The notes beneath the pieces are model-generated. The model made no database searches. It had not been told where the DNA came from and saw only the letters and a program-made list of their open reading frames with translations. A program made the position numbers and the translations under genes. From the NCBI GenBank assembly GCA_003136095.1, contig PNBO01000414.1:24848-57265 (forward strand): 32,418 nt of DNA. Direction: 5' to 3'. The DNA is from Myxococcales bacterium (GTDB taxonomy: Bacteria; Myxococcota_A; Polyangia; Fen-1088). This document shows, piece after piece, positions 628-19,263 of the stretch (position 1 is its first letter; each line of letters opens with the position of its first letter).

Positions 628-1623
628 TCAGGTTCCGGCGGCGTCGTTGACGAGCAGGTAGGCCAAGGTTTGATTGACCAACTGATACGCGATCTCGCCG
701 AAGGTCACCGGACCCGTGAAGGCGGCGGTGCGTTTGCCCTCCAGCTCCGAGTACAGGTAGTTGAGGATGCAATTGCAGGAAAAGGTGACCTGCCCGATGT
801 CGGCGGGAACATGGCGCGTGAATTGGGCCGCGTAGTCGCGCACCGGGCGTGCGTGGCGGTACGTCACGCCAACGAACACCGGGGCATAGAAACGGACGAC
901 GGAAGCCGCGGCATCCACGTTCTGAAAGCTGACGTTCACCCGGGTACCCAGGTAGTCGGCCACGAGCGGCAAGCGCGTGTCGGCTTGCTTCTGTTCCAGC
1001 CATTTCGCCCAATTGACCCGAACGCCTCCGACCACGGCCTCGCGCGCCTCGAAGCCATCCTTCTCGAACTTGATATCGGGCCCCTCCCCCATCTCGAAGA
1101 TGTTGAGGATAGCCAGCTCCGCGACCTTGCCCTTGGGTAGGCGCGCATGCAGGACGACTGCGCCATCGGCAATCGCCTCGCCGGAACGGCCGTCGAAGAC
1201 CAGCGCCGCGACCTTGCCCAGGTCGTCGAGATGGATGCCCGCGATCCAGCCGATCAGCGGTCGATGCGCGAAGCGCTCGAAGCTGGGCGCGCCGAGGGCG
1301 AAGCGCAGGTGGGTGGGCGACTGCGCCGGGATGATGATCAGCGAATAGGCGGCGGTCGCGGCATCGATGTACACCCGTTCGATGCTCCGCGCGTCGTAGC
1401 GAGCAATCTGCGCCGCCTGCGCGTCCTCGCCTAGCTCGGTCACGTGGATCAAATCCCGCGAGCACACGCCGCCGGCATCGCCGATGAAGTAGGGCGTGGT
1501 GCCCCCGATCCAGTTGCCACGGGGCAGTTGGCGCAGGACGCGCTCGTCGCCCGCCAGGGCGAGCGTCTTGCCCGATTCGATCAGGCGCGCAACCTCCGCC
1601 ACGCTGAATAGTGCCTTTGCCAT
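628..1623 (-). CDS. Conserved hypothetical protein with FIST-like C-terminal features
   Basis: I do not recognise a named function for this 331-residue protein. No signal peptide or membrane segment is visible, so it is probably cytoplasmic. Near the N-terminus is LPRGNWIGGTTPYFIGD. Near the C-terminus (about residue 281 on) is FSCNCILNYLY, followed by GPVTFGEIAYQLVNQTL. The order 'FSC...GP.T.GEI....NQT' recalls the end of FIST-C sensory domains, but the resemblance is weak and this is an inference. The ATG at 1623 (MAKALFS) is preferred over an upstream GTG at 1632 because AGGTGAGG lies a few bases before it on the minus strand. The upstream small ORF ends at 1629, so the two are probably co-transcribed. 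Confidence 0.75.
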   Translation of the reverse strand: MAKALFSVAEVARLIESGKTLALAGDERVLRQLPRGNWIGGTTPYFIGDAGGVCSRDLIHVTELGEDAQAAQIARYDARSIERVYIDAATAAYSLIIIPAQSPTHLRFALGAPSFERFAHRPLIGWIAGIHLDDLGKVAALVFDGRSGEAIADGAVVLHARLPKGKVAELAILNIFEMGEGPDIKFEKDGFEAREAVVGGVRVNWAKWLEQKQADTRLPLVADYLGTRVNVSFQNVDAAASVVRFYAPVFVGVTYRHARPVRDYAAQFTRHVPADIGQVTFSCNCILNYLYSELEGKRTAAFTGPVTFGEIAYQLVNQTLAYLLVNDAAGT

Positions 1624-3175: not shown

Positions 3176-6100
3176 TTAGTCTCGTTCTGCCGTCTTCCCG
3201 AGGGCACCGAGTTGCTCTCGAAATCGCTGGCCAAGCTCGGCGACGTGCGGTGCCTTCAGAATTCCCAGGTGATCGCCCGGCACGTCGATGACCGTAAGCG
3301 GACTGCGCAGGTAGCGGCCCCATCCGTAGTCGTGTTCGAATTCGAACGACGCATCCCAGTTCTGGTCGGCGGCCCGGAAGAGGATGATTGCGAAGTCGGC
3401 CTGGGCACCGTCTGCGCTCCATCCACCGATCGCTTCGTAGAAGGCGTCTTGCTTGATGGCGTGCGCTTCCTCGGCCGTGTGCCCCTCCGATTGAATGCCC
3501 GCGGCGGACAAGCGTAGTACCAACTTGTCCCAAACCTCGGAAAGCTTGTGGAGCAGCATTTGCCGCCCCTCGCTGGTCACCAGTTGCGTGGCCCGCCTGC
3601 GGGCCCACTTGGCCCAGTTCCGCCGCGTCGCGCGCGGTGACGGGGCATCCAACATCGCGACGATTTCCACCTCGGCCCCTTCATCGCGCATCAGCAATGC
3701 GACCTGCAGGGCGACGAGACCGCCAAAAGATACTCCGGCCAATCGATACGGCCCACGGGGCGCGACCTTGATGATGGCCTCGTAGTAGGCTCGCGCCAGC
3801 CGATCGATCGAGATATCCACCTTTTGTCCCTGCAGGGCCTGCCTGGTCAACGCGTGCTCTTCGGCCACATAGACGCCGAACACCGGTTGCCCTTGGCCAA
3901 GGCTGTCCGCGAATTCCTTGTAGAGCATGATCCCGGACAGACAAAAGATCGCCGGGCCACTCCCTTCGGGCTGTAGCGGAATGATGAGGGAGGCTTCTTC
4001 GGCGGTTCCCGCCCCGAATGTCTCGACCAGTCCCGCGATGGTCGGGCAACGGAAGATCGTCCCCAGGGTGATCTCGATCCCGGTCAGCTTCTCCATTTCG
4101 AGCATGAGCTTGACCAGCGCCAGCGAGTTGCCACCGAGGTCGAAGAAACTGTCATGGATGCCCACGCGCGCAACTCCGAGCACATTCTGCCACGCGGCCG
4201 CCAAGCCAATCTCCAGCTCGTTCCGGGGCGCCACGTAGGTGTCGGCGCGGCTCCCGGCATCCCTATCTTGCGGGGCCGGCAGTGCCTTGCGGTCGACCTT
4301 GCCGTTGGGTGTGAGCGGCAAGGCATCGAGGGTGACGAAGTGGGCGGGCACCATGTAGTCGGGAACCGCCTCGCGCAGCATGGCCCGCAACTGCTCGAAC
4401 AGATCCGCGGGCGGCTCGTTGGCAACGACGTACGCGACCAGCCGCTTGTCACCTGGCACGTCTTCGCGCGCGACGGCGACCACCCGGCGAACGGCAGCAT
4501 GCCGGGCAATACAAGCTTCAATTTCCCCCAGCTCGACCCGGTAGCCACGAAGCTTCACCTGATGGTCGGTGCGTCCCAGACATTGCAGCACACCGTCCAC
4601 ACGCCAGCGCGCCAGATCGCCCGTGCGGTAGAGCCGGGCACCCGCCACAAAGGGACTCGGAACGAAGCGCTCCCGAGTTAGATCGTCGCGGTTCCAATAG
4701 CCACGCGCCACACCCTTGCCACCGATGTAGAGCTCGCCTATCGCGCCCGGGGGAACCAGCTCCATGCGAGAATTCAGGAGGTACACCTGTGTGTTCGCGA
4801 TCGGGTGCCCGATGGGCACGGGCGTCTCCGCGGGCTGCACCCGATGGATGGTCGAATAAACCGTCGTTTCCGTGGGACCGTAACCGTTCCACAGCTCGGC
4901 ACACCGGGCCAGGAGCGCCGCGGCCAGATCGCCGGACAGGGGTTCACCGCCACACACTGCCTTGAGCCCGGGCGAGCCCGGCCAACCCACCTCGACGAGC
5001 CCGCGCCATGTCGCTGGCGTGGCTTGCAGGAGCGTGCACTCATCCTCGCGCAGCCTGCGCATCAACCGCTTTGGATCCAGCACGTCCTGGCGGCTGGCGA
5101 TGACCACTTTCGCCCCCACGATCAGGGGCAGAAAGATCTCCAGCCCCGCGATGTCGAACGACAGCGTCGTCACCGCCAACAGGGTGTCGCGGTCGTCAAG
5201 GCCCGGCGCCTGCTGCATGGACAGCAGGAGATTGACGAACGCGGCGTGCGAGATGCCGACCCCCTTGGGCTGCCCTGTCGAGCCCGACGTGTAGAGCACG
5301 TAGGCCAGATGCTCCGGTCGCACCCCCGTCCCGCCCGTCGCGCCCCCCTTCGCCCGCGCAATCTCGTCCGCATCCTCGTCTAGGCGCACTAGCTTGGCCG
5401 GGCGCTGCTTCAGCATGCCATCGAGCCCGTGGTGCGAAACCAGGGCGCCCATGCGTGCGTCCGCGATCACGTAGGCCAGCCGATCTGGCGGGTACGACGG
5501 GTCGAGCGGCACATAGGCGCCGCCCGCCTTCAAGATGCCCAGCAAGCCGACCACCATGTCGAGCGACCGGTCGACAAGCAGCCCCACGAGCACGTCCGGG
5601 CCCACCCCGATCACCCGCAAGTGGCGCGCCAATTGCTCCGCGCGCCGCTCGAGCTCGCCGTAGGTCATCGTCGACTGCTCGAAGACCAGCGCAACGTCGT
5701 CGGGGGTCTGCCGGGCCTGCCGCGCGCAGAGCTCGTGCACGCAGCGGTCACCTTCGGCCGGCTCCGCGCCGGTGCGATTCCATTCCTCGACCATGAGGCG
5801 CCGATCCGCCTCGGCAACCATGGGCAGTCGCGCGATGTCCGCATCCGGATTGGCCACGGCCGCGGTGAGAAGCTGGCCGTAGGATCGGCCCAGGCGCCGG
5901 ATGGTTTCGGCCTCGAACAAATCGGTGCTGTATTCGATCCGTCCCGCCAAACCACCGTCGGTTTCGGCCAGGAACAGGGTCAGATCGAACTTGGAGGTAT
6001 CCGTCTGCAGCTCGTGATTGCCGGACAGCTTGGCCACCTGGGAGACACCATCGCGGCCGTGCAAGACGAACATGAGCTGGAAGAGCGGCGTCCGCCCGGG

Positions 6101-9034
6101 GTCCCGATCGGAAACCAGCTCGGTGACCAGGCGCTCGAATGGTAGCTCGGCGTAGCTGAATGCCCCCAGAACCCGCCTGCGCGTCTGCTGCAGGAGCTGG
6201 CGGAAGCTCATATCCACCGAGAACTGCGAGCGCAGCACGATGGTGTTGAGGAAACATCCCACCAGACGCTGGGTTTCGGTGTGGTTCCGTCCGGAAATCG
6301 GCGTCCCGACCAGGAAGTCCTCCTGGCCGGTGTACCGGTGGAGCAACAGCGCGAATGCGGCCTCCAAGGTCATGAATAGGGTTGCCTGCTCCGCCCGGCC
6401 GAGCGCGTTCAGCTCGGCCAGCAGTGCCTTCGGCAGGGCGAAGGATTCCGAGGCCCCCCGCCAGCTCAATCCGGCAGGCCGCGGCTTGTCCGTCGGGAAA
6501 GCCAGAATCCGCGCGACCCCCGCCAGCTCCTGCCGCCAGCGATCGAGCTGGGTCCGCAGGGCCTCGCCTTGCAGGGTCTCCCGCTGCCACACGGTATAGT
6601 CCGCGTATTGCAAGGTGAGCGGCTCCAGGGGGGATGGCCGTCCCTGGCAGAATGCCGCGTACAGTTCGTTCACCTCCTTGTGTATCAGCTCCATCGACCA
6701 TTCATCGGCGATGATGTGATGGATGGTCAGCAGCACCCGATGCTCCGCGGGCGCCATGTGTACCACGGAGACGCGCAGGAGCGGGACCTGCGACAGGTCG
6801 AAGGGGCGATGCCCCTGCTCGCGCGCCAGCCGTTCCCATTCGCGTTGCCGTTCCTCCTCGGAGACGGCGGTCAGGTCGTGTTCCGGCAGGTCCAGGTCAA
6901 ACGGAGGCGCAACCGCTTGCGCCGGCTCGCCCTCGATCCGCTTGAATGCCGTGCGCAGGATCTCGTGACGGCGCACGAGCTCGCCGAAGGCTCGCGCCAG
7001 CGCCTTGCCATCGTAGTTTCCACGAATCGGGATGACGTCCACGATGTTGTAGGCGGGGCTGCCCGGGACCAGTTGGTCGAGCAACCACATTTGTTGCTGC
7101 GCGAAGGAAATCGCGCAAGGTCCGTCGCCACGACGCCGGGGAATCGACGCGACTTCCCGGCCTTCTCCCCTGGCCTCCGCCACCGCCGCCGCCAGTCCCA
7201 CCAGCGTCGAATTCTCGAACAAGATCTGCGGTGCCAAGTTTACCCCCAGTTGATCCCGGACGCGCGCCAGCGCCCGGATGGCCAAGAGCGAGTGCCCTCC
7301 CAGGTCGAAAAAATCGTCCTCGAGGCCAATCGTCTCCACTTTGAACAATTCAGCCCAAATGGCCGCGACCGCGCGTGCGGTTTCACTGCGCGGCGCGGTC
7401 CTGGGCCGCGACACCGCGCCTTCGAGAGTGGACAGCTCGGGCAGCGCCTTCCGATCGACCTTGCCATTGAGGGTGAGCGGTAGGGAAGCCAGAAAGACCA
7501 CGTGCGCCGGCACCATGTATTCGGGGAGTTGCCGTCCGAGAAACGCCTGCGCGTCTTCCACGGAAAGCCTCTGGCCGGACCGGGGCACCACATAGCCGAC
7601 CAATTGCTTGTTGCCGGTGGTGTCCTCACGGGCAACCACCGCGCAGGTTTGCACTAAGGGATGGCTCGCCAACGCCGCCTCGATCTCTCCCAGCTCGATC
7701 CGGTAGCCGCGCACCTTCACCTGGTTGTCGTCGCGGCCAAGAAACTCCAAGGTTCCGTCAGCCCGGTAGCGAGCCAGGTCGCCGGTCCTGTACAGGCATG
7801 CGCCGACGCGGCCCGAGAAGGGATCGGGAAGAAAACGCTCCTGTGTCAGCTCTGGCCGGTTCAGATAGCCGCGGGCGACCCCGGCGCCACCGATGAAGAG
7901 CTCGCCCATTTCACCCACGGGCACCGGCTGCAATTTCTCATCGAGAACGTAGAGCTCGGTATTCGCGATGGGACGGCCGATGGGCACCGGACCATTCCGG
8001 GACTCGAAGGGGCGGACCTCATGCACGCAACAGCCGACCACGGTTTCGGTGGGACCGTACTCGTTGATCAGGCGCGTGCCCGGCGCGTAGTCGCGCCAGA
8101 GGCTCAGGCTCTCCGCGGGCAGATTCTCGCCACCGATGACAAAGGTCTTGGTCAAGCCGGCAAGCTCATCGGACCGGAGCTGCTGGGTGAGGACATCGAG
8201 GTGCGCGGGTGTGATCTTGACCAGGGAGCGATTCCCGCGCGCCCGCAATGCCGCGAGCAGGTTCCGCGCCCCGACGTCCTCGGTCAGGAGCTCGACTTGC
8301 CCGCCCGCGAGCAGCGCCGGATACAGGCTGGTCACCGTCAAGTCAAACGCGATCGAGCTGTGGACGGGGACCGACCCGCCTGGCTCGACGGCATACGCCT
8401 TGATCGCCCAGGAAAGATAGTTCACGAGCCCGGTGTGCGGGATCATGGCGCCCTTGGGCTGCCCGGTCGAACCCGACGTGTACATGACATAGGCCAAATT
8501 GTCGGGAGACACGCCGATGTTCGGATTGCCGGTGCCTTCCTGGGCCATGGCATCCCACTCGTCATCCAGGCAAGCCATCGCGACCTGGTCCGGCGGGAAC
8601 AGCGCCTTGCACTTCCGCTGCGTAAGCAACGTGCGAATGCCGGCGTCGGCGACCATGAAACCGAGCCGCTCGGACGGATAGGCAGGATCCAGCGGAACGT
8701 AGGCGCCGCCCGCCTTCCAAACCCCCAGAAGCCCTATGACCAGTTCCAGGGAGCGTTCCAGGCAGACGCCCACGAGCGTCTCGGGCCCAACGCCATGCTT
8801 GCGCAGAAAGTGGGCGACCTGGTTTGCGCGCTGGTTGAGATCCCGGTACGTAAGCTGGCGCTCCCCGCACACAACGGCGACGGCATCGGGACTGCGGTCG
8901 GCCTGCGCCTCGAACAGCTGATGCACGCAGACCGGCGGAAATTCCGTGCGGGTGTCGTTCCACCGGTAAAGCAGTCGCTTGCTTTCGGCTTCGTCCAGAC
9001 GAGGATTCGTCCCGGCGCCATTCAGAGTGACCAT
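3176..9034 (-). CDS. Two-module non-ribosomal peptide synthetase, A-T-C-A-T-TE
   Basis: The protein has 1952 residues. Domains in order: A1 (about 35-535; YTSGSTGQPKG, NEYGPTE, YRTGD, NGKVDRK), T1 (about 550-620; LGGHSL, pantetheine Ser582), C (about 637-1070; SFAQQQMW, HHIIADE at 772-778), A2 (about 1095-1585; YTSGSTGQPKG, NGYGPTE), T2 (about 1605-1675; LGGNSL, Ser1637) and TE (about 1690-1945; GVSFG Ser1769, Asp1796, His1922). With no starter C domain, module 1 loads a free amino acid. Aligned by eye to GrsA-PheA, the A1 code is D231 L232 T235 K273 V299 G301 E325 V333 G334 K525 (DLTKVGEVGK), an L-Asn code. The A2 code is DILQVGGVYK, nearest to Gly-type DILQ codes, and is uncertain. No E, MT or Ox domain is present. 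The expected product is an Asn-X dipeptide released by hydrolysis or cyclisation. ATG 9034 is chosen because it starts just before A1 and overlaps the dehydrogenase gene by 13 bases, with AAAGAG upstream. Confidence 0.93.
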   Translation of the reverse strand: MVTLNGAGTNPRLDEAESKRLLYRWNDTRTEFPPVCVHQLFEAQADRSPDAVAVVCGERQLTYRDLNQRANQVAHFLRKHGVGPETLVGVCLERSLELVIGLLGVWKAGGAYVPLDPAYPSERLGFMVADAGIRTLLTQRKCKALFPPDQVAMACLDDEWDAMAQEGTGNPNIGVSPDNLAYVMYTSGSTGQPKGAMIPHTGLVNYLSWAIKAYAVEPGGSVPVHSSIAFDLTVTSLYPALLAGGQVELLTEDVGARNLLAALRARGNRSLVKITPAHLDVLTQQLRSDELAGLTKTFVIGGENLPAESLSLWRDYAPGTRLINEYGPTETVVGCCVHEVRPFESRNGPVPIGRPIANTELYVLDEKLQPVPVGEMGELFIGGAGVARGYLNRPELTQERFLPDPFSGRVGACLYRTGDLARYRADGTLEFLGRDDNQVKVRGYRIELGEIEAALASHPLVQTCAVVAREDTTGNKQLVGYVVPRSGQRLSVEDAQAFLGRQLPEYMVPAHVVFLASLPLTLNGKVDRKALPELSTLEGAVSRPRTAPRSETARAVAAIWAELFKVETIGLEDDFFDLGGHSLLAIRALARVRDQLGVNLAPQILFENSTLVGLAAAVAEARGEGREVASIPRRRGDGPCAISFAQQQMWLLDQLVPGSPAYNIVDVIPIRGNYDGKALARAFGELVRRHEILRTAFKRIEGEPAQAVAPPFDLDLPEHDLTAVSEEERQREWERLAREQGHRPFDLSQVPLLRVSVVHMAPAEHRVLLTIHHIIADEWSMELIHKEVNELYAAFCQGRPSPLEPLTLQYADYTVWQRETLQGEALRTQLDRWRQELAGVARILAFPTDKPRPAGLSWRGASESFALPKALLAELNALGRAEQATLFMTLEAAFALLLHRYTGQEDFLVGTPISGRNHTETQRLVGCFLNTIVLRSQFSVDMSFRQLLQQTRRRVLGAFSYAELPFERLVTELVSDRDPGRTPLFQLMFVLHGRDGVSQVAKLSGNHELQTDTSKFDLTLFLAETDGGLAGRIEYSTDLFEAETIRRLGRSYGQLLTAAVANPDADIARLPMVAEADRRLMVEEWNRTGAEPAEGDRCVHELCARQARQTPDDVALVFEQSTMTYGELERRAEQLARHLRVIGVGPDVLVGLLVDRSLDMVVGLLGILKAGGAYVPLDPSYPPDRLAYVIADARMGALVSHHGLDGMLKQRPAKLVRLDEDADEIARAKGGATGGTGVRPEHLAYVLYTSGSTGQPKGVGISHAAFVNLLLSMQQAPGLDDRDTLLAVTTLSFDIAGLEIFLPLIVGAKVVIASRQDVLDPKRLMRRLREDECTLLQATPATWRGLVEVGWPGSPGLKAVCGGEPLSGDLAAALLARCAELWNGYGPTETTVYSTIHRVQPAETPVPIGHPIANTQVYLLNSRMELVPPGAIGELYIGGKGVARGYWNRDDLTRERFVPSPFVAGARLYRTGDLARWRVDGVLQCLGRTDHQVKLRGYRVELGEIEACIARHAAVRRVVAVAREDVPGDKRLVAYVVANEPPADLFEQLRAMLREAVPDYMVPAHFVTLDALPLTPNGKVDRKALPAPQDRDAGSRADTYVAPRNELEIGLAAAWQNVLGVARVGIHDSFFDLGGNSLALVKLMLEMEKLTGIEITLGTIFRCPTIAGLVETFGAGTAEEASLIIPLQPEGSGPAIFCLSGIMLYKEFADSLGQGQPVFGVYVAEEHALTRQALQGQKVDISIDRLARAYYEAIIKVAPRGPYRLAGVSFGGLVALQVALLMRDEGAEVEIVAMLDAPSPRATRRNWAKWARRRATQLVTSEGRQMLLHKLSEVWDKLVLRLSAAGIQSEGHTAEEAHAIKQDAFYEAIGGWSADGAQADFAIILFRAADQNWDASFEFEHDYGWGRYLRSPLTVIDVPGDHLGILKAPHVAELGQRFREQLGALGKTAERD

Positions 9035-10182
9035 GCGATGATCTCTTTCAAAATCTCGTTCGTTCCGGCGAAGATTCGCTCCACGCGGCTGTCGGTCCAC
9101 ATACGCGCGATGGCGTACTCGATCATGTAGCCGTAGCCACCGTGGAGTTGAAGACACTCGTCGACGACACGGCACTCACATTCCGTGAGCCAGTACTTCG
9201 CCATCGCCGTCGCCACCGGATCCAGTTGACCACGAAGGTGGCGTTCGATGCAATGGTCGACGAATACGCGCCCTATCTGCGTTTCCGTCTTGCACTTGGC
9301 CAGCACCATCCGCGTGTTTTGATAGTCCAAGAGCGGCTGCCCCGCAACCGTGCGCTCTTTCACGTACTTGCTCGTGATGGCCACCGCCGCTTCCGCCGTG
9401 GCAACGGCGGCGACCGCGATGGAAAGCCGTTCGTAGGGGAGTTGGTCCATCATCTGCGCGAGTCCCTGGCCCTCGGCGGTACCCAGCAGGTTCGCCGCCG
9501 GAACGCGCATACCATCGAAGAAAAGCTCGCAGGTGTCGTGACCGTTCCGTCCAACCTTCTCGATCGGACGGCCGACCCGATAGCCGGCCAGCTCCTTGGT
9601 CTCGATACAAATGAGCGAGAGCGCCCTCGGGCCGACGGCCTTGGGGTCGGTCCTCACGGCGAGACAGACCAGGCCGGCGTGCAGTCCGTTGGTGATGAAG
9701 GTCTTGGAACCCTCGATGACGTACTCGGCGCCGTCGCGGCGGGCGGTGGTCTTGAGGCCTTGCAGATCCGATCCCGCGCCAGGCTCGGTCATCGCGATCG
9801 CGCCCACCAGCTCTCCCCGCGCCATGGGCGGCAGCCAGCGGCGCCGCTGGTCCTCACTGGCGTACTTTTGGATGTAATGTGCCACGATGCTCTGGACGCT
9901 GGCGCCGAAGATGACACCCGCGCGGGCAAGCTCTTCGAGCACGACGGCTTCGTGGGCGAAGGTTCCGCCTCCGCCTCCGTACTCCTCGCCGATATCGGGG
10001 AGGAGCATGCCGATGGCGCCCGCCTTGACGTAGGCCTCGGCATCGGGGTGGTGCTGCGCACGCCAGCGACTCTGATGCGGTGTCAGGTTTGCCTGAATGA
10101 ATTGCCGGACGGTGTTGCGGAAGCTCCGAACCTCTTCGGTCGCCCACGGAGATTCGTACGAGGTTGGGAACAAGGTTGTCAT
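9022..10182 (-). CDS. Acyl-CoA dehydrogenase family flavoprotein of the NRPS locus
   Basis: A 386-residue protein of full family length that dehydrogenates an acyl thioester at the alpha-beta position using FAD. Visible motifs are the FAD/substrate motif AMTEPGAGSDLQG (about 130-142), the GSKTFITNG strand and the C-terminal CLQLHGGYGYM and FAGTNEIL. The position of the medium-chain catalytic Glu is Ala372 here. Glu251 in QLPYERLSIA sits where long-chain and isovaleryl-CoA dehydrogenases place their base, so the enzyme is probably active with the alternative Glu. Its stop overlaps the NRPS start by 13 bases, implying co-translation and a role in the same pathway. The substrate could be an aminoacyl group on a carrier protein or a CoA ester; the sequence does not decide. 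The ATG at 10182 is the first Met before the conserved region; TATACT lies 10 bases upstream and no Shine-Dalgarno sequence is evident. Confidence 0.9.
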   Translation of the reverse strand: MTTLFPTSYESPWATEEVRSFRNTVRQFIQANLTPHQSRWRAQHHPDAEAYVKAGAIGMLLPDIGEEYGGGGGTFAHEAVVLEELARAGVIFGASVQSIVAHYIQKYASEDQRRRWLPPMARGELVGAIAMTEPGAGSDLQGLKTTARRDGAEYVIEGSKTFITNGLHAGLVCLAVRTDPKAVGPRALSLICIETKELAGYRVGRPIEKVGRNGHDTCELFFDGMRVPAANLLGTAEGQGLAQMMDQLPYERLSIAVAAVATAEAAVAITSKYVKERTVAGQPLLDYQNTRMVLAKCKTETQIGRVFVDHCIERHLRGQLDPVATAMAKYWLTECECRVVDECLQLHGGYGYMIEYAIARMWTDSRVERIFAGTNEILKEIIAWSL

Positions 10183-10466: not shown

Positions 10467-12131
10467 ATGTGTGGAATTGCGTGCATTCTCGATATCCAAA
10501 GTGATCCCAAAGCGCTGCGCGAACGAGCTGTGTCGATGGCCCGGCTACTCCGACATCGCGGCCCGGATTGGAGCGGCATCTTCGCCGACCAACGCGCCAT
10601 TCTGGCGCACGAACGCCTGGCCATCGTCGATGTCGTTCACGGCGCCCAGCCCTTGACCAACCAGGCCGAGGATATCGTTTTGGCGGTGAACGGCGAGATC
10701 TACAACCACCGGCCGCTCCGCAGCGAGTTTCCCGAGTACCCGTTCAAGACGGACTCGGACTGTGAAATCGTGATTCCTCTCTACGAGCGCCACCAGGCGG
10801 ACTTCCTCAATCGCCTGAGCGGCATCTTCGCTTTCGTGCTCTACGACAAGCGCAGCAACAACTTCCTCATCGCCCGCGATCCGATCGGCGTCGTGCCGCT
10901 CTACCTCGGCCGCGACGAGCACGGAAATCTGCACGCGGCCTCGGAGATGAAGGCCCTCATTCCCTACTGCCGCCACATCGAGGACTTCCCTCCCGGCCAC
11001 TACCTCGTCAAGGGCATGGAGAGGCCCGCCTCCTACTACCGCCCGCAGTGGCGCAGCTATGATGCGGTGAAGGACACGCCACTGGATCTCGCCAAGCTCC
11101 GCTCGGCCTTGGAACGGGCCGTGCACCAGCAACTCATGTGTGACGTGCCCTATGGCGTGCTCATCTCCGGCGGCCTGGACTCTTCCGTCATCAGTGCCAT
11201 CACGCAGCGCTTTGCTCCCAACCGCGTGGAGGAAAGCGACAAGGTGACGGCCTGGTGGCCGCGGTTGCACTCCTTCGCCGTGGGCCTGGAGGGCTCGCCG
11301 GATCTGGCCATGGCCCGCAAGGTCGCCACCGCCATCCGCACCGTGCACCACGAATTCCTCTTCACCGTGCAGGAAGGCCTGGATGCTTTGCGCGACGTGA
11401 TCTATCACATCGAATCCTACGACGTGACGACCATCCGGGCTTCGACACCCATGTACCTGATGGCGCGGAAGATCAAGGCCATGGGTATCAAGATGGTGCT
11501 TTCCGGCGAGGGCGCCGACGAGGTCTTCGGTGGCTACCTGTATTTCCACAAAGCGCCCAACGCCAAGGAATTTCACGAGGAGACAGTCCGCAAGCTCGAC
11601 TCGCTCTTCAAGTACGATTGCCTGCGCGCCAACAAGACCACGGCCGCCTGGGGCATCGAAGTCCGCGTGCCCTACTTGGACCGCGACTTTCTGGATACCG
11701 CCATGGCCTTCAACCCCGCCGAGAAGATGGTGGGTGCACGCAAGATCGAGAAATACCCCTTGCGCAAGGCCTTCGAGGGCTACCTGCCCGAGGAGGTACT
11801 CTGGCGGCAGAAGGAGCAGTTCTCGGACGGCGTGGGCTACCGCTGGATCGACAGCCTGAAGGCCACCGCGGGAGAGCGCATCGGCGACGCGCAAATGGAG
11901 AATGCCAGGTATCGCTTTCCCCACAACACTCCCTCCACCAAGGAGGCCTACCTTTACCGAGAGATCTTCGAAAGTCACTTCCCGGGCGAGGCCGCGGCCC
12001 AGGCCGTGCCTGGCGGACCCAGCATCGCCTGCAGCACACCTACCGCCATCGCTTGGGACGCCAGCTTCGCCAAGAACGCGGATCCCTCGGGGCGCTCGGT
12101 CTTGGGGGTCCACCAGAACCCGAAGGGATGA
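10467..12131 (+). CDS. asnB: Asparagine synthetase B, glutamine-hydrolysing
   Basis: The protein has 554 residues, the same length as E. coli AsnB. It converts aspartate, ATP and glutamine to asparagine, AMP, PPi and glutamate. The N-terminal Ntn glutaminase starts with the catalytic Cys2 (MCGIACI) and keeps the glutamine-binding residues around R50, NGE (75-77) and D98. The synthetase half has the ATP-pyrophosphatase loop SGGLDSS at 234-240 and downstream SGEGADEVFGGY and EVRVPYLDRDFL. All catalytic features appear intact, so it is not one of the truncated or beta-lactam-synthetase-like relatives. AAGGAG at 10457-10462 supports the start. It is divergent from the dehydrogenase-NRPS pair, whose first A domain carries an Asn code, so a role as dedicated precursor supply is a strong inference. 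It could equally be the cell's housekeeping enzyme. Confidence 0.93.
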   Translation: MCGIACILDIQSDPKALRERAVSMARLLRHRGPDWSGIFADQRAILAHERLAIVDVVHGAQPLTNQAEDIVLAVNGEIYNHRPLRSEFPEYPFKTDSDCEIVIPLYERHQADFLNRLSGIFAFVLYDKRSNNFLIARDPIGVVPLYLGRDEHGNLHAASEMKALIPYCRHIEDFPPGHYLVKGMERPASYYRPQWRSYDAVKDTPLDLAKLRSALERAVHQQLMCDVPYGVLISGGLDSSVISAITQRFAPNRVEESDKVTAWWPRLHSFAVGLEGSPDLAMARKVATAIRTVHHEFLFTVQEGLDALRDVIYHIESYDVTTIRASTPMYLMARKIKAMGIKMVLSGEGADEVFGGYLYFHKAPNAKEFHEETVRKLDSLFKYDCLRANKTTAAWGIEVRVPYLDRDFLDTAMAFNPAEKMVGARKIEKYPLRKAFEGYLPEEVLWRQKEQFSDGVGYRWIDSLKATAGERIGDAQMENARYRFPHNTPSTKEAYLYREIFESHFPGEAAAQAVPGGPSIACSTPTAIAWDASFAKNADPSGRSVLGVHQNPKG

Positions 12132-12241: not shown

Positions 12242-12928
12242 ATGCGCCTCTTTCCATCGCTCGCTCTCGCCATGTTCCTGATTCCGTCCCTCGCCCATGC
12301 CCAGACGCCGGGCGTGCCCGCGGGCATGCCGCTGGTCGTGGACATGCAGAAGATCGAGGTCGGCGCGTGGGCCGAGTACGCCATGTCCATGGGGAGCATC
12401 GCGCTCTCCTCGCGCTGGGCCCTAGTGGCCCGCGACGCCAAGTCCAACACCATCGAGATGACGACCAAGGGCGGCCCGGTCGCCAAGCCAGTCGTGCTGC
12501 GCCTGACCCTGCCCCCGGATCCGACCAGCGACGAGAAACCCCCGAAGCCGATGGCGGTGCAGTTCGGCGACGACGCGCCCATGCTCGTGCCGAAGGACAC
12601 GCCGGTGCAGAAATTCCAGCGTCCAGACGCCAAGAATCTCGTGGGCAAGGAAGAGATCAAGGTCGCCGCCGGGACCTTCAAGACCTCGCACTACCGCGAG
12701 AAGAACGCCATGGGCACGGTCGACATCTGGGTCAACGAGACGGTCTTCCCGCTCGGCATTGTCAAGGTGCTGACCTCGCCCGAGGTCGACAAGAACGCGC
12801 CCGCCGCCATGCAGGTCCCGGCCGCCACCATGGAGCTGTCGTCGACCGGCAAGGGGGCCAAGCCCGTGATCACCAAGAAGCCCCAGCCCTTCGACGAAAA
12901 GAAGATGGGCGGCCTGGTGGGGAAATAG
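12242..12928 (+). CDS. Exported protein of unknown function (LolA/DUF3108-like flavour)
   Basis: A 228-residue protein with a classical Sec signal peptide (MRLFPSLALAMFLIPSLAHA, cleavage before QTPG). The mature part is a beta-rich single domain that includes KEEIKVAAGTFKTSHY and VDIWVNETVFPLGIVKV. The pattern 'V-AGTFK..HYR ... D-W-....P-GIVK' is reminiscent of periplasmic proteins with the LolA or DUF3108 fold, but I am not certain of the family. AGGAG at 12232-12236, five bases before the ATG, fixes the start. The gene lies 110 bases after asnB and is separated from the exbB operon by a hairpin array, so it is probably its own unit or the tail of the asnB transcript. The C-terminus is Lys-rich (KKPQPFDEKKMGG). 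Confidence 0.72.
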   Translation: MRLFPSLALAMFLIPSLAHAQTPGVPAGMPLVVDMQKIEVGAWAEYAMSMGSIALSSRWALVARDAKSNTIEMTTKGGPVAKPVVLRLTLPPDPTSDEKPPKPMAVQFGDDAPMLVPKDTPVQKFQRPDAKNLVGKEEIKVAAGTFKTSHYREKNAMGTVDIWVNETVFPLGIVKVLTSPEVDKNAPAAMQVPAATMELSSTGKGAKPVITKKPQPFDEKKMGGLVGK

Positions 12929-12939
12929 CTTCGGTTGTG

Positions 12940-12964
12940 CTGGGAACCCTGAGAGGGTTCCCAG
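12940..12964. terminator. Strong 11-bp hairpin after the exported protein gene
   Basis: CTGGGAACCCT (12940-12950), loop GAG, then AGGGTTCCCAG (12954-12964) form a perfect 11-bp stem starting 12 bases after the stop codon. There is no T-run afterwards, so it may work as a Rho-independent terminator of the GC-rich type or as an RNA 3'-end stabiliser. Confidence 0.65.
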
Positions 12965-12970
12965 GCCCTC

Positions 12971-13002
12971 CCGCGATGCTTCGCGGTCGGCAAAGCCGAC
13001 CG
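12971..13002. repeat. Two further adjacent hairpins in the same gap
   Basis: CCGCGA (12971-12976), loop TGCT, TCGCGG (12981-12986) is a perfect 6-bp stem. CGGTCGGC (12984-12991), loop AAA, GCCGACCG (12995-13002) is a perfect 8-bp stem. They share three bases, so only one can form at a time. Together with the 11-bp hairpin at 12940-12964 they make a compact cluster between the exported protein gene and exbB. Confidence 0.6.
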
Positions 13003-13131
13003 GCTCCCCACGCGCCTGGCCCGCTTGCGCGCCCCCACAACGCGGGGTTGCAATCGTGGCCCGGGGGTGACAGAAAACGGTCGCTCCGGTGTTCTACAAG
13101 TTCGTCGCGCCACCGGTAGCAGGAATACGCC

Positions 13132-13791
13132 ATGAACACGAACGCTGCTGAAGGTCTTGTCCAACGTCTGCTCGCCTTGCCTGTCTTTCGCTCCGAGTGG
13201 GTGCTCTGGCTGCTCCTCGGCCTGTCCCTGATGTCGGTGGCGGTGATGGTCGAGCGCTGGTTCTTCTACCGGCGGCGCAAGCTGGATTTCGAGGGCGTGA
13301 AGGATGAATTCTCCAAGGCGCTCGACAAAGGCGACTTCGACGCCGCGGCCAAGCTCCTGGCCAAGTATGACTGCCTGGAAACCAACGTCACCCTGGCCGG
13401 CCTGCGCGGCTACGAGAAAGGCCCCGAGTCGGTTGAGGATTTGATCGCGGGCGCCATGAGTCGCGGCAAGGCCGAGTACGAGCGACGCCTGTCGATTCTG
13501 GCGACCCTGGCCTCGAACGCGCCCTACATCGGCCTCTTCGGCACCGTGCTCGGCATCGTGCGCTCGTTCAAGGAGATGTCCAAGGACCTCGCCAACGCCA
13601 GCTCGGGCGTCATGGGCGGCATCGCCGAGGCCCTGGTCGCGACCGCGGTCGGCCTCCTGGTCGCCATCCCGGCGGTGGTCGCCTACAACGTGTTCAAGGG
13701 CATGGTGAAGGACGCCGTGACCAATACCGATGGACTCACGCGTGTGCTCATGGCCGAGCTGAAGTCGGCCGGCAAGACCGCGAAGGAATAG
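13132..13791 (+). CDS. exbB: ExbB/TolQ/MotA-family proton channel subunit
   Basis: A 219-residue inner-membrane protein with the ExbB/TolQ layout: TM1 at about 22-41, a large cytoplasmic loop of about 75 residues, then TM2 (about 120-143) and TM3 (about 162-188). The family signature APYIGLFGTVLGIVRSF (130-146) and the TM3 motif GGIAEALVATAVGLLVAIPA are present. With ExbD it forms the proton channel that powers TonB. The start has AGGA at 13121-13124, 7 bases upstream. It opens a packed operon (exbD follows after 2 bases) that includes its own TonB and a receptor, so ExbB fits better than TolQ; no tolB or pal is present. Transcription probably begins in the 13003-13131 gap, after the hairpin cluster. 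Confidence 0.92.
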   Translation: MNTNAAEGLVQRLLALPVFRSEWVLWLLLGLSLMSVAVMVERWFFYRRRKLDFEGVKDEFSKALDKGDFDAAAKLLAKYDCLETNVTLAGLRGYEKGPESVEDLIAGAMSRGKAEYERRLSILATLASNAPYIGLFGTVLGIVRSFKEMSKDLANASSGVMGGIAEALVATAVGLLVAIPAVVAYNVFKGMVKDAVTNTDGLTRVLMAELKSAGKTAKE

Positions 13792-13793
13792 CC

Positions 13794-14222
13794 ATGGCAG
13801 CGCAAACCGGCAATGGCGAGGACGAGGGACTGCTCGCCAATATCAACATCATCCCCTTCGTCGACATCGTGCTCGTGCTCCTCATCATCTTCATGCTGAC
13901 GTCGATCGCCATCGTCCGCGCCAGCATGGTGGTCAACCTGCCCAAGGCCGCCACCGGCGGCGCGCGCGTCGAGTCCACGGTCAACATCGTGTGCAACAAG
14001 GACGGCAGCCTCATGCTCAACGGCGCCCGCTCCAACGTCGACGAGATCGGCAAGTTCGTGAAGCGCGAGAGCGCCGCCAACTCGAAGTTGCAAGCCGTGA
14101 TCGCGGCCGACAAAGGCGTCGAGTACGGCCATGTCGTGGATCTCATCGACCTGGTCAAACGCAACGGTGTTTCCGCTTTCGCCCTCGACGTCGAGCGGGA
14201 GATTTCGATCAGCCCACCCTGA
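13794..14222 (+). CDS. exbD: ExbD/TolR-family proton channel subunit
   Basis: A 142-residue protein with one N-terminal membrane helix. It carries the conserved proton-path Asp24 in PFVDIVLVLLIIFM and a periplasmic ExbD/TolR domain (SMVVNLPKAATGG, then AVIAADKGVEYGHVVDLIDL). It partners ExbB to convert the proton gradient into TonB motion. AAGGA, in the last codons of exbB, lies just upstream, and the gap between the two genes is 2 bases, so expression is coupled. The family length (about 140) fits and no domain is missing. Confidence 0.93.
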   Translation: MAAQTGNGEDEGLLANINIIPFVDIVLVLLIIFMLTSIAIVRASMVVNLPKAATGGARVESTVNIVCNKDGSLMLNGARSNVDEIGKFVKRESAANSKLQAVIAADKGVEYGHVVDLIDLVKRNGVSAFALDVEREISISPP

Positions 14223-14237
14223 CGAGGGTTTCTCGTG

Positions 14238-15218
14238 ATGGACAGCAAGCCTTCCGCCCCGCTATCCGGTCAGCCTGCGAGCGGCGACCCGGCCCGCCGG
14301 CCGCGGCCGACGCGAACCAATCCGTTCGTCGAGCAACGCGCCCGGCGGCGGCAGGCCTCGCGCGCGCGGACCATGGCGCACGTGCGGGTACCCATCCATG
14401 TCGCGTTCCGCGCCCACCACGAGCAACGGCGCATGCCGGGCTGGCTGCGCGCGGCCCTCGGCATCCTGGTCTTGCTGGCGTCGCTGGGACTGCACGTGGG
14501 CTTCGTCCTCATGGCCTTCGGCGTGGGCAGCCTGGGCGCGCAGCGCGAGAACGAGCGCGAGCGCCTGGCTATCGAGATGCGCGAGCACGAGGTCAAGGCC
14601 AAGGAGCCCGAGCCGCAGAAACCGCCCGAGCCGAAGAAGGAAGTCGAGCGAGTGGCGCTGGTCAAAGCGCTGCCCGCGCCCAAGATCGAGGAGCCACCCA
14701 AGGATCCGGACAAGAAGCCACCGCCGCGCATCGTGGGCCTCAATTTCGAATCCACCGTCGGCGAGGGCAGCGGCGACGGCCCCGCCTTCGCCGTGGGCAA
14801 CACCCGCCTGGGCGAAACCGACAAGGTCGCGGCCAAGACGGAAGACGTGCCCAAGGAGCGCCCCGCGCCGGTGCACGGCACGGAAAAGCCCACGGTCGCG
14901 AATCAGGCGGCCACGCGCATCCCGAGCAAAGGCGTGACCTTCACCGAGGCGAAGTACCACGGCGATCGCCTGAAACCCGACTATCCGCCCACGCTGAAGG
15001 CGCAAGGCGTGGAAGCGGATGTAGAGGTTCTGGTCTTCATCGATGCCACGGGCAAGGTGACCATGGTGAAGATCCTGCACGAATCGCCCTACCTCGAGTT
15101 CAACGAGGCCGCAAAAAAGAGCGCTCTGGCCCAACCCTGGGAGCCGGCCACCCGCAACGGCGAAGCCATGCCGTCGACCAAAAAGTACTCCTACCGCTTC
15201 AGAATCACGGACGAGTGA
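14238..15218 (+). CDS. tonB: TonB-family energy transducer
   Basis: A 326-residue protein: a basic cytoplasmic N-terminus of about 65 residues (VEQRARRRQASRARTMAHVR), one membrane helix (about 70-95, ALGILVLLASLGLHVGFVLM), a charged Pro/Glu/Lys periplasmic linker (KEPEPQKPPEPKKEVERV) and a C-terminal TonB domain in the last 90 residues (LKPDYPPTLKAQGVEADVEV, then IDATGKVTMVKILHESPYLE). It links the ExbBD motor to the outer-membrane receptor encoded two genes downstream. The cytoplasmic tail is longer than in E. coli TonB, where it is about 12 residues. GTG at 14235 directly before the ATG is an equally good start; GAGGG at 14224-14228 serves both. It ends 2 bases before the lipoprotein gene. 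Confidence 0.9.
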   Translation: MDSKPSAPLSGQPASGDPARRPRPTRTNPFVEQRARRRQASRARTMAHVRVPIHVAFRAHHEQRRMPGWLRAALGILVLLASLGLHVGFVLMAFGVGSLGAQRENERERLAIEMREHEVKAKEPEPQKPPEPKKEVERVALVKALPAPKIEEPPKDPDKKPPPRIVGLNFESTVGEGSGDGPAFAVGNTRLGETDKVAAKTEDVPKERPAPVHGTEKPTVANQAATRIPSKGVTFTEAKYHGDRLKPDYPPTLKAQGVEADVEVLVFIDATGKVTMVKILHESPYLEFNEAAKKSALAQPWEPATRNGEAMPSTKKYSYRFRITDE

Positions 15219-15220
15219 CC

Positions 15221-16564
15221 ATGCGAAAGAACCTCCTGCTCGCCAGTGTCCTGGCGCTTTTCGGCTGTGGCAACCGCAACTTCAACCGGCCTGACCTGCT
15301 CACCGAGCCGCGCATTCTGGCCATCCAGGCCGAACCGCCGCAGCCCACCGTCGGCACCTCGACCACTTTGCGCGCGCTGGTCTACCAGCCGCCCGTGACC
15401 AACGACGGTGGCGCCTGCCCCGATCCTGGAACCGCGCCAACAACCTATGCGTGGTCATGGTGTCTGCTGCCCTATGTATTGGATACGAACAACAACTACG
15501 TCTGCCCCATCAACCAGGCGAGCATGGACCAAGTTTTGGCCGCGCTCGGCGCAGGCACGGCAACGCCTCTCGACGATTTCAGCACTGACGAGACCGCGAA
15601 CCTCACCAACCCCTTTCCCGCTGCGCTGCTTCACGGCTTGTGCCGAGGAGACATAGGCCTCCTTTCCGCTGCCGGCGCACCCACGAATAGGCCGGACAGC
15701 GGACAATCGTCGCCGTTCCAGTGCGATCGGCCCAGCGGGGAGAATACCAGCACACCGGTGGCGCAAACCGACCCCATCGGTTTCCAGATCACGATCAAAC
15801 TGGTCGTAACACCTTCGTGCCCAGCCTTGCTTCCCGCTGGGTTCAGCCCCCTGACCGCGCTCTTCACCGTCCATTTGCCCACCCAAGACGCGCTGCCGGG
15901 CAACTTGAACCCGGTCATGAACGGCATCTTCGTCACCTCACCCCTTCCGGACGGTATCGTTCCGTCCTACGACGCGGCTCCGATTCCACAAGACGATGCC
16001 GCCGCTTTGGACGGCGCCACTACCGACGACGATGGAGGTACATCCTTGGCCGATGGCGCTGCAGGGACGGCCGGCCCCGCAGAGGTCGATGCGGGCGTCC
16101 CCTCGACGTCCATCACTGGCTGGGAGTTGGATGACCGAGGTTCGGTCCCCATTCAGCGTCAGCAGCACGTGTCCATTCAGCTTGATGTCCCCCCCACGTC
16201 CTCGGAGTTTCTCGTTCAACCAGGGATGCTCGATGACGAGTACAACAGCAACGGAGATCTCCTGGGAACGATGCGCTTCGAGCGCCTGAGCTTCGCGTGG
16301 TTTGCCGAAGCCGGCGACTTCGGTAGCGACGGCCAAGGCGGGCGCAGGACGGGCTATCTCCCGGATCTCAACGATCCGTCAGGCGCCGGACCGGATGGCG
16401 GGGTCGACACGACGTTGTTCCAGCAAGCTATCAGCAACACGTGGACCTTGCCCTTCGCCAGCGATTATCCGCCCAAGACCTCTCGCATCATCGTCGTGGT
16501 GCGCGATAGCCGTGGCGGCGTGGCGTGGACTTCGGGCGTCGCCACCTTGGAGGACAAGCCGTGA
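15221..16564 (+). CDS. Outer-membrane-type lipoprotein inside the TonB operon
   Basis: A 447-residue protein with a lipoprotein signal (MRKNLLLASVLALFGCGNRN; lipid Cys16 in LFGC). The rest is a secreted beta-rich region with several Cys and a central low-complexity acidic linker full of Asp, Ala and Gly (DDAAALDGATTDDDGG). The region before the linker contains PRILAIQAEPPQPTVGTSTT, which resembles the start of an immunoglobulin-like extracellular domain. I know no function. Its ATG is 2 bases after the tonB stop and its stop overlaps the GTG of the receptor gene (GTGA), so it is made with them. A likely role is a surface partner of the receptor, as SusD-like and other lipoproteins are for some TonB-dependent receptors, but no SusD motif is visible. 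Confidence 0.75.
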   Translation: MRKNLLLASVLALFGCGNRNFNRPDLLTEPRILAIQAEPPQPTVGTSTTLRALVYQPPVTNDGGACPDPGTAPTTYAWSWCLLPYVLDTNNNYVCPINQASMDQVLAALGAGTATPLDDFSTDETANLTNPFPAALLHGLCRGDIGLLSAAGAPTNRPDSGQSSPFQCDRPSGENTSTPVAQTDPIGFQITIKLVVTPSCPALLPAGFSPLTALFTVHLPTQDALPGNLNPVMNGIFVTSPLPDGIVPSYDAAPIPQDDAAALDGATTDDDGGTSLADGAAGTAGPAEVDAGVPSTSITGWELDDRGSVPIQRQQHVSIQLDVPPTSSEFLVQPGMLDDEYNSNGDLLGTMRFERLSFAWFAEAGDFGSDGQGGRRTGYLPDLNDPSGAGPDGGVDTTLFQQAISNTWTLPFASDYPPKTSRIIVVVRDSRGGVAWTSGVATLEDKP

Positions 16565-19263
16565 GGTTGCCGCGCGTCTTCGTCCTCGCACTGCTGGCCA
16601 TGGTTCCCACCGCGGTCAATGCGGCCGAAGAAAGCGAAGACCAGGGTACCAAGGCCGCCGCCGAGCGCGCAGGCGAGAGCGCGATCGCGGGCAAGACCGC
16701 CGCTACGTCCATCGACGCCGACCAACTCAGCAAGCAGCCCAAGCTCGTTCGGCAAGCCAATGTCGCCTACCCCAAGGAAGCCGTGGGCAAGGCGGGCGAT
16801 GTCCAGATCACGCTGGCCGTCGATCTCGACGACAAGGGCTCCGTGGTCGGCGCGGCCGTCCTCGAACCCCAGACCCCGACCGGGCTCGGCTTCGAGGAAG
16901 CGGCTTTGACCGCGGCCTACGACCTGGGCTTCGAGCCCGCCGAGGTCGCCGGCAAGCCAACCGCGGTCCAGATCATCTACACCTTCAAGTTCCCCGCCCC
17001 GCCGCCTCCCAAGCCGGAACCCCCAAAGGTCGTCGAGGTGGAAGCGCCCAAACCCATCCCCGTCGAAAACTTCGCCGGCGTGCTGGTCGAACGCGGCACG
17101 CGCCTGCCGCTCTCGGGCATCCTGGTCACAGTCTACCGCACCGAGGGCGACGCGCCGGTCGGCTTCGAGGACCACACCGATGCCAAGGGTGGTTTCCACT
17201 TCTTCGACCTGGAACCCGGCGCCTGGAAAGTGCGCATCGAGCCGCCTTCCTACTATCCCTTCCGCACCACCGAGGAGATCGCCAAGGGCGAACGCACCCA
17301 GGTCACCTATTACATCGAGCGCGGTTCGTACAATCCCTTCGACGTCGTGGTCGAGGCCAAGCGCGAGCGTAAAGAGGTCAGCCGCACGGTCATCGAGAGC
17401 GCGGTTATCGACAAGTTGCCCGGCGCCATGGGCGACCCCCTGGCGGTGGTTCAGAACTTCGCTGGCGTGGCCCGCGCCGCCGCCGGATCGGGTGAAATCA
17501 TCATCCGCGGATCCGCGCCGACGGACACCCTCTACTTCGTCGATGGCACGCCGATTCCCAATGTCTACCATTTTGGCGGCATTCGCAGCGTCCTGCCCAC
17601 GGGAATCATTGACAGCCTGGAGTTCTATCCCGGCAACTTCTCCCCGTACTATAGCAACACCACGGCCGGACTCATCGACGTCGACACCAAGAAACTCAAG
17701 CCCAGGAAGACGGGAGGCTACGTCGATTTCAACCTGCTCGACGGCGGCATCTATTTCGAGACCCCCTTGGGCGACAAGGCAGCGCTGGCCATCGCGGCAC
17801 GCCGCAGTTGGATCGACTACATCATCAACGCCGCCTTGCCCTCCAATGCCCCCATCAATGCCGTCACCCTGCCCCGCTACTACGACTACCAGTTGCTGGC
17901 CACGTATCGCCCTGCCCCCGCCCATGAGCTTCGCCTGTTCGTCTTTGGCTCGGACGACGCATTCAAAATCATCCTGAAGAACCCTGGCGTCGCCGGCACG
18001 CAAGTGGTCGGCAACAACCTGCAGCTCTCGACGGCCTTCTATCGCGTGCTGGCCACCTACAAATACGTCCCGAACGACCATTTCACGAACACGATGCGCC
18101 TGTCCCAAGGCCGCGACACCAACAACGATCAGTTCTTCAACTTCATCCTGAACTATACCACCGACCTCACGACCTTCCGGGACACCGCCCGTTACGAGTG
18201 GTCGAAGAAGCTAGCCCTGATGACCGGCATCGACTTCTTCTACAAGCGGGACAGCGGGATCTTCAATATTCCGGCCCCGACTCAAGAGGGTCAGACCTTC
18301 ACCGCGAATAACCTGGCCGACGTCCTTCACGAGGAAATTTCCGGACAGAATTCCTACGACCCCGGCGCCTTCGCGGAATTTGAGCTCAAGCCGCTCCCGC
18401 AATGGCTACTCCTGCCCGGCGTTCGTTTCGACTATTTCTCCAAGGTCTCGCAATTCACGACCGCCCCGCGCTTCACCACGCGCTACGAGCTCACCAAACA
18501 GGTGACGCTCAAGGGCGGCGTGGGCCTCTTCTACCAGCAGCCCAGCATCGATCAGACCGACAAGGTCTTCGGCAATCCAGCCCTGAAGTGCGAATGGGCC
18601 ATCCACTATTCGGGCGGCGCAGAATGGCGACCTCGCTCCTACATCACGCTGGACGCCACGGGTTTCTACAAAGACCTCGGCAGCATGGTCAGCGTCACCC
18701 CGGCGCCTGCGGGTGGTGGTAGTCCGGCCACGCGCTACGACAACAACGGCAAGGGGCGTGTCTATGGTTTGGAATTCGTCGCCAAGCACGAGCTGACCAA
18801 GAAATTCGTGGGATGGATCGCCCTCACCATGATGCGTTCCGAGCGCCTAGACTCGGGCGCCACCGCCTGGCGCCTTTTCGAATACGATCAACCCCTCATC
18901 CTCACCATCCTGGGCTCCTACCAACTGCCGCGCAACTGGCAGATTGGTGGCCGGTTCCGTTACACAAGCGGAAATCCTTCCACACCGGTGATCGGCTCTG
19001 TTTACAATGCCTCGTCCGACAGTTACTCGCCGATCTATGGCGCCAAGTACTCCACCAGGGTGCCGGCGTTCGCACAGCTCGACATCCGGCTCGACAAGAA
19101 ATGGATTTACAACAAGTGGATCTTCAACGCCTACGTCGATCTTCAAAACGTAACCGATCGGTCTAATCCTGAACAGCAGGAATTCAATTTCAACTACCAA
19201 AGATCCCAGTACGGCAACGGATTTCCCATCTATCCCATCATCGGTTTGCGGGGGGAGCTCTGA
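16561..19263 (+). CDS. TonB-dependent receptor with an N-terminal TonB-C-like domain
   Basis: The protein has 900 residues. Order: signal peptide (1-21, MRLPRVFVLALLAMVPTAVN), a TonB-C-like domain (about 55-145; ANVAYPKEAVGKAGDVQI, VDLDDKGSVVGAAVLE), a Pro-rich hinge (146-168), a carboxypeptidase-regulatory-like beta-sandwich (about 170-253; GVLVERGTRLPLSGILVTVY), a TonB-box-like DVVVEA (261-266), a plug (about 275-380; GEIIIRGSAPTDTLYFVDG) and a 22-strand-type barrel to the C-terminus (…YPIIGLRGEL). It should be an outer-membrane gated channel driven by the ExbB-ExbD-TonB complex encoded upstream. Its substrate is unknown. The GTG at 16561 is chosen since it begins the signal peptide and overlaps the previous stop by 4 bases. 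The stop overlaps the next ATG (TGATG). The TonB-C-like part in the receptor itself is unusual. Confidence 0.88.
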   Translation: MRLPRVFVLALLAMVPTAVNAAEESEDQGTKAAAERAGESAIAGKTAATSIDADQLSKQPKLVRQANVAYPKEAVGKAGDVQITLAVDLDDKGSVVGAAVLEPQTPTGLGFEEAALTAAYDLGFEPAEVAGKPTAVQIIYTFKFPAPPPPKPEPPKVVEVEAPKPIPVENFAGVLVERGTRLPLSGILVTVYRTEGDAPVGFEDHTDAKGGFHFFDLEPGAWKVRIEPPSYYPFRTTEEIAKGERTQVTYYIERGSYNPFDVVVEAKRERKEVSRTVIESAVIDKLPGAMGDPLAVVQNFAGVARAAAGSGEIIIRGSAPTDTLYFVDGTPIPNVYHFGGIRSVLPTGIIDSLEFYPGNFSPYYSNTTAGLIDVDTKKLKPRKTGGYVDFNLLDGGIYFETPLGDKAALAIAARRSWIDYIINAALPSNAPINAVTLPRYYDYQLLATYRPAPAHELRLFVFGSDDAFKIILKNPGVAGTQVVGNNLQLSTAFYRVLATYKYVPNDHFTNTMRLSQGRDTNNDQFFNFILNYTTDLTTFRDTARYEWSKKLALMTGIDFFYKRDSGIFNIPAPTQEGQTFTANNLADVLHEEISGQNSYDPGAFAEFELKPLPQWLLLPGVRFDYFSKVSQFTTAPRFTTRYELTKQVTLKGGVGLFYQQPSIDQTDKVFGNPALKCEWAIHYSGGAEWRPRSYITLDATGFYKDLGSMVSVTPAPAGGGSPATRYDNNGKGRVYGLEFVAKHELTKKFVGWIALTMMRSERLDSGATAWRLFEYDQPLILTILGSYQLPRNWQIGGRFRYTSGNPSTPVIGSVYNASSDSYSPIYGAKYSTRVPAFAQLDIRLDKKWIYNKWIFNAYVDLQNVTDRSNPEQQEFNFNYQRSQYGNGFPIYPIIGLRGEL

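Follow-up and report, generated by a model that had tools for sequence, protein, structure and literature searches.

An acyl-CoA dehydrogenase-family flavoprotein in a recurrent asparagine-loading NRPS cassette: a candidate trans-acting dehydrogenase of carrier-bound asparagine

In the window (the whole 32,418-nucleotide stretch of a Myxococcales contig analysed here), a gene for a flavoprotein of the acyl-CoA dehydrogenase family (ACAD) runs into the start of a non-ribosomal peptide synthetase (NRPS) gene (Table 1). Comparison of its sequence and gene context with those of relatives places the ACAD in a conserved asparagine-loading cassette, in which it probably acts on asparagine bound to the first carrier domain of the NRPS (Asn-S-T1) as a trans-acting α,β-dehydrogenase.

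Table 1. Genes and domains of the cassette, by position in the window
Feature	Position	Strand	Remarks
ACAD	9022..10182	-	ATG start, 386 aa; base Glu251, Ala372, Trp384; proposed trans-acting Asn-S-T dehydrogenase
Overlap of ACAD stop and NRPS ATG	9022..9034	-	exactly 13 nt, ATGGTCACTCTGA
NRPS	3176..9034	-	1952 aa; dimodular, A1-T1-C-A2-T2-TE
A1 domain	7436..8926 (approximate)	-	code DLTKVGEVGK (Asn type)
T1 carrier domain	7181..7372	-	LGGHSL; proposed site of the ACAD reaction
C domain	5792..7114	-	His motif HHIIADE, unlike the usual HHxxxDG
A2 domain	4235..5725 (approximate)	-	code DILQVGGVYK (Gly-like)
T2 carrier domain	4019..4222 (approximate)	-	LGGNSL
Thioesterase (TE) domain	3236..3832	-	nucleophile motif GVSFGG (Ser)
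asnB, asparagine synthase B	10467..12131	+	divergent from ACAD, third cassette gene; PRK09431 870 bits (cut-off 499)

A recurrent gene set around an asparagine-type A domain

The NRPS opens with an A domain, and the domain search found no starter C domain in it nor, as an earlier sequence-only reading of the window had noted, any lipid-loading domain. By its specificity code, A1 matches the Asn-specific DLTKxGEVGK. With residues read from sequence motifs, the same string, DLTKVGEVGK, is found in 12 of the 13 readable ACAD-linked A domains and in one unlinked locus of the same genome bin (L081), while the remaining linked domain, that of L008, reads DLTKIGHVGK. By the standard Stachelhaus/Challis code, we take the first string to denote Asn and the second Asp. 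Both are 2-aminosuccinyl units, so the predicted substrate would always be such a unit. The A2 code is similar to the Gly-type codes of L064 and L008. Within its Asp-type A1 domain, L008 appears by eye to carry a methyltransferase-like insertion (12700..13750), with a SAM methyltransferase-like gene downstream, and methyltransferases recur in L012, L013, L064 and L066.

The 13-base overlap, already described in the sequence-only reading, recurs at the same length in L006, L009, L010, L062 and L064, and ACAD and NRPS overlap by 4 nt (ATGA) in L011, L012 and L013, which brings the overlaps of either length to nine loci altogether. This is more than chance, and the length is in part set by the ACAD's conserved C-terminal end (...AWSL-stop). 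Within the family of the window's genome, the genomes with the ACAD (E <= 1e-150) and those with asnB (E <= 1e-80) are identical, 6 of 18, and belong to four genera; five of these six have an Asn-type A domain, and in the remaining one the contig ends within the A domain. All three are absent from a near-complete congener (G004). A random assignment of six genomes out of 18 would give this match with a probability of 1/18564, although the genomes are related and non-independent. Outside the Myxococcota, asnB is linked to the cassette in Bradyrhizobium (L012). Genome searches found no close asnB copy in G395, G396 and G896, and asnB was therefore rejected as a universal cassette gene.

The host of the window is a draft genome bin (G000; 84.75% complete, 6.73% contamination) in the same family as the genome of L009, a Myxococcales MAG. 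The bin encodes a second ACAD, which is 71% identical to that of the window, together with a mono-modular A(Asn)-T-TE synthetase (L006, 2020..6400 of contig C249; 13-nt overlap, TTG start); beside them lies a broken, frameshifted asnB remnant, which could be an assembly error. A third Asn-type A-T-TE synthetase (L081, 5509..9543 of C289) stands without a neighbouring ACAD and is followed downstream by a polysaccharide deacetylase gene; in its A domain it is closest to L060, which does have an ACAD next to it. Given the contamination figure, both copies could come from another organism in the bin. Both ACAD-NRPS copies have genes for ExbB, ExbD, TonB and a TonB-dependent receptor in their vicinity (window 13132..19263; L006 11465..16815); these were dropped as a cassette part, being only 27-50% identical between the copies and unseen in other loci. 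Downstream of the window NRPS, a full-length DUF6976 protein is encoded (628..1623, minus strand).

The dehydrogenase among its relatives

The window ACAD belongs to the acyl-CoA dehydrogenase superfamily: the Pfam domains Acyl-CoA_dh_N, _M and _1 each score above cut-off, and an AlphaFold model (pLDDT 90.8) confirms the fold, with human LCAD (8w0z) and 2pg0 as the closest structures (TM 0.92-0.93). By alignment, Glu251 coincides with the catalytic base of LCAD (the LCAD/IVD position) and is invariant in the 37 ACADs aligned, and Ala372 occupies the site of MCAD Glu376, where all 20 outgroup ACADs carry Gly. Both residues are thus as stated in the sequence-only reading, which had likened the protein to the long-chain/isovaleryl type. 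It shares fold and base position with these enzymes, but differs from them in its separate clade, its NRPS neighbours, and three clade residues identified against the outgroups: Ala372, Tyr250 (next to the base) and Trp384. Tyr250 and a one-residue deletion after Ser98 were rejected as clade-unique marks, both being present also in L015 and L017.

A scan of the genomes of 84,980 species with both ACADs of the bin returned 33 loci, which are separated by a gap in identity: members at 65-71% lie directly 5' of an A-T NRPS, whereas relatives at 56% or below adjoin no A-T NRPS and show only remote acyl-CoA-ligase matches. Additional searches of genomes brought in L060 and L062-L066, which have an NRPS (in divergent orientation in L065 and L066, and 2 kb away in the latter), and L067-L069, which lack an adjacent A domain; L069 adjoins an Sfp-type phosphopantetheinyl transferase. 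In a tree of 48 sequences, the window ACAD falls into a clade of 17 (support 100/100), apart from the sampled CoA/β-oxidation ACADs. Fourteen of the 17 adjoin an A-T module, in hosts from the Myxococcota, Alphaproteobacteria and Acidobacteriota; together with L069 they form a group of 15 (100/95), to which L067 and L068 are a basal pair. The closest unlinked relatives, L014-L016, are surrounded by thiolase, ligase and SDR genes, as judged by eye. Since the NRPS-linked label requires two changes on the tree, the tree shows an association and not one clean origin. That an ordinary β-oxidation gene came to lie beside the NRPS by chance, as the family annotation by itself might suggest, is hardly credible: it is contradicted by the linkage recurring in three phyla, the overlap, the co-occurrence and the separate clade.

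L067 and L068 have no NRPS nearby and no close A1 homologue in their genomes, by which strict NRPS linkage across the whole clade was rejected, and the ancestral substrate may therefore have been CoA-linked. In these Acidobacteriota the genes (L067 7405..8562; L068 5418..6578) lie beside a γ-glutamyltranspeptidase and an ADH-like oxidoreductase, a possible hint at that substrate. Together with the closest solved relatives, LCAD and other CoA enzymes, this basal pair speaks for an ACAD that oxidizes CoA-bound or other acyl thioesters feeding the same pathway instead of an NRPS-bound amino acid. Such a role is nevertheless unlikely, as the partner is an A-T domain and the cassette showed no gene for an acyl-CoA ligase, thiolase or hydratase. 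The tree and gene context likewise speak against a CoA-acting long-chain ACAD, which should group with CoA/β-oxidation enzymes and have CoA-catabolic neighbours. The sequence-only reading had left room for a CoA substrate outside the NRPS and had named two results that would undo an NRPS-bound substrate, placement inside a β-oxidation clade with conserved CoA-binding residues and a co-expressed starter C domain elsewhere in the genome; the ACAD was found outside the CoA/β-oxidation branches sampled, and no starter C domain stands ahead of it. Both the tree and the missing CoA genes around NRPS-linked members make a CoA substrate the less favoured option.

Trp384 presumably corresponds to Arg388 of MCAD, by a gap-free count from Glu376 along the MCAD C-terminus. 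The site carries Arg in 18 of 20 outgroup ACADs and in L067 and L068, and Trp or Ser in 13 of the 14 NRPS-linked clade members. In MCAD, Arg388 interacts with the acyl-CoA substrate, and the R388S variant has an about 100-fold lower substrate affinity (PMC3981736). This evidence against a CoA substrate is only suggestive because PigA/RedW-like enzymes vary at the site as well (R, S, R and K in L084-L087); once these were checked, the missing contact Arg was rejected as proof of a carrier substrate, being non-diagnostic.

The predicted substrate and reaction

A close functional parallel to the proposed role is provided by the PigA/RedW L-prolyl-[peptidyl-carrier protein] dehydrogenases, which have the ACAD fold, act in trans on a carrier-bound amino acid that a partner A domain has loaded and, in solved structures, place their catalytic Glu where the window ACAD has it on the helix. 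However, the window ACAD scores far below the cut-offs of these families (171.5 against 650 for NF045652; 159.3 against 500 for NF053553), its partner A domain is of Asn and not Pro type, and asnB is linked; a prolyl-PCP dehydrogenase was rejected on the scores and the A code. The bin also holds a genuine PigA-type enzyme (L084, 1..2718 of C390; NF053553 582, cut-off 500), to which the window ACAD is about 30% identical, so that both enzyme types coexist. L084 adjoins an open frame with another A domain and is probably part of a pathway to a pyrrole-2-carboxyl unit. Another parallel is BolQ of bolagladin biosynthesis, an ACAD homologue that desaturates an amino-acyl thioester derived from Asp, N-acyl-β-Ala-ACP, and whose deletion leads to a saturated (dihydro) product (PMC7756342). 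The likeness is one of described function, and the substrates differ: N-acyl-β-alanyl on a free ACP is proposed for BolQ, whereas here it would be unacylated Asn carried by a T domain of the NRPS.

Which thioester is oxidized can be narrowed down by comparing locus architectures. L006, L009 and L060 encode mono-modular A-T-TE synthetases, and in L011-L013 an A-T protein precedes further, separate proteins that bear TubC_N docking domains, among them a TE (L011, L012) and a methyltransferase (L012, L013), the TE and docking domain of L011 being assigned by eye. As none of these six loci has a condensation domain, only an aminoacyl thioester can be shared by all loci as the NRPS-bound substrate. 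A dipeptidyl thioester on T2 would fit the dimodular loci (window, L008, L064, L065), but is very improbable given the single modules and the A-T proteins without C domain. Of the two thioesters that the sequence-only reading had considered, the aminoacyl one is thus supported, by the Asn code and the asnB co-occurrence as well, and the dipeptidyl one is not. In all four dimodular loci, the C-domain motif reads HHxxADE instead of HHxxxDG (window 6700..6730), which is possibly linked to an unusual donor.

The substrate, reaction, timing and product that we propose are as follows. AsnB would supply asparagine, which A1 would adenylate and load onto T1. The ACAD would then dock in trans on T1, where Glu251 would abstract the α proton of thioester-bound Asn and FAD would accept the β hydride, yielding α,β-dehydroasparaginyl-S-T1 or the corresponding imine tautomer. 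In the window, the C domain would condense the dehydro-Asn unit with a Gly-like residue on T2, followed by release through the TE, whereas mono-modular relatives would release the oxidized Asn directly. Counting against an Asn-oxidizing ACAD are L081 with its Asn-type A-T-TE and no ACAD, the non-universal asnB, the basal pair L067/L068, and a fold nearest to LCAD and not to the prolyl-PCP dehydrogenases.

The product might also be of another kind. Indigoidine synthetase IdgS (A-Ox-T-TE) resembles the cassette in that a single amide amino acid is loaded, oxidized and released by a TE; it differs in using Gln and an integral FMN Ox domain, where the cassette has Asn and a separate ACAD, as well as a second module in the window NRPS (PMC10989907). 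The indigoidine-synthetase type was discarded for the window, whose NRPS has no Ox domain and whose A domain is not of Gln type. In the indigoidine route, release of the cyclic imide by the TE comes first and its dehydrogenation by the Ox domain second (PMC10989907), and A-T-TE, an oxidase and Asn would make up a five-ring analogue. Post-release oxidation to an aminomaleimide is therefore a live, though rather unlikely, rival: the ACAD would act on carrier-bound or just-released Asn without forming a stable dehydro-Asn, for example with the TE cyclizing it to an aminosuccinimide that is oxidized to an aminomaleimide, or with an imine being formed and then hydrolysed or methylated. The recurrent methyltransferases would agree with this, as would the TEs with a Cys nucleophile (GxCxG) in six relatives (L009, L060, L081, L011, L012, L066; Ser in the window and L006), which may favour unusual cyclizations. 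On the other hand, the ACAD is a separate flavoprotein with a thioester-using fold, and in the window a C domain and a second module come after T1, which implies that the unit is passed on.

Genomic setting and meaning of the cassette

Several loci lie among genes for polysaccharide formation: L012 neighbours a UDP-GlcNAc epimerase, a UDP-sugar dehydrogenase, a deacetylase and a flippase, L064 a flippase, a deacetylase and a UDP-sugar dehydrogenase, and L066 a UDP-sugar dehydrogenase; the deacetylase of L081 and, by eye, polysaccharide genes at L009 are comparable. Polysaccharide genes were not seen next to the window's copy. From the vicinity to Wzx-type flippase, polysaccharide deacetylase and UDP-sugar dehydrogenase genes, it is a speculative and doubtful suggestion that a mobile asnB/ACAD/A(Asn)-T-TE cassette makes a reactive dehydro-Asn or aminomaleimide unit which several hosts feed to a cell-surface polysaccharide pathway.

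Direct desaturation of a carrier-bound amino acid by a flavoenzyme is known for proline and β-alanine units, and asparagine would be an extension. As far as we found, desaturation of synthetase-tethered asparagine has not been shown before: a search of open-access papers, and thus weak evidence of novelty, returned nothing on dehydroasparagine, on a maleimide with NRPS and ACAD, or on the code string. If the proposed reaction of the ACAD on Asn-S-T1 holds true, the cassette would be a portable set of genes for making dehydro-Asn or cyclic derivatives of it, recognizable by Tyr250, Ala372 and Trp384 in combination with the A-domain code DLTKVGEVGK. The mono-modular A-T-TE members make the substrate question testable on very small proteins, and genome miners could drop the fatty-acid-oxidation annotation that such ACAD genes would otherwise receive.
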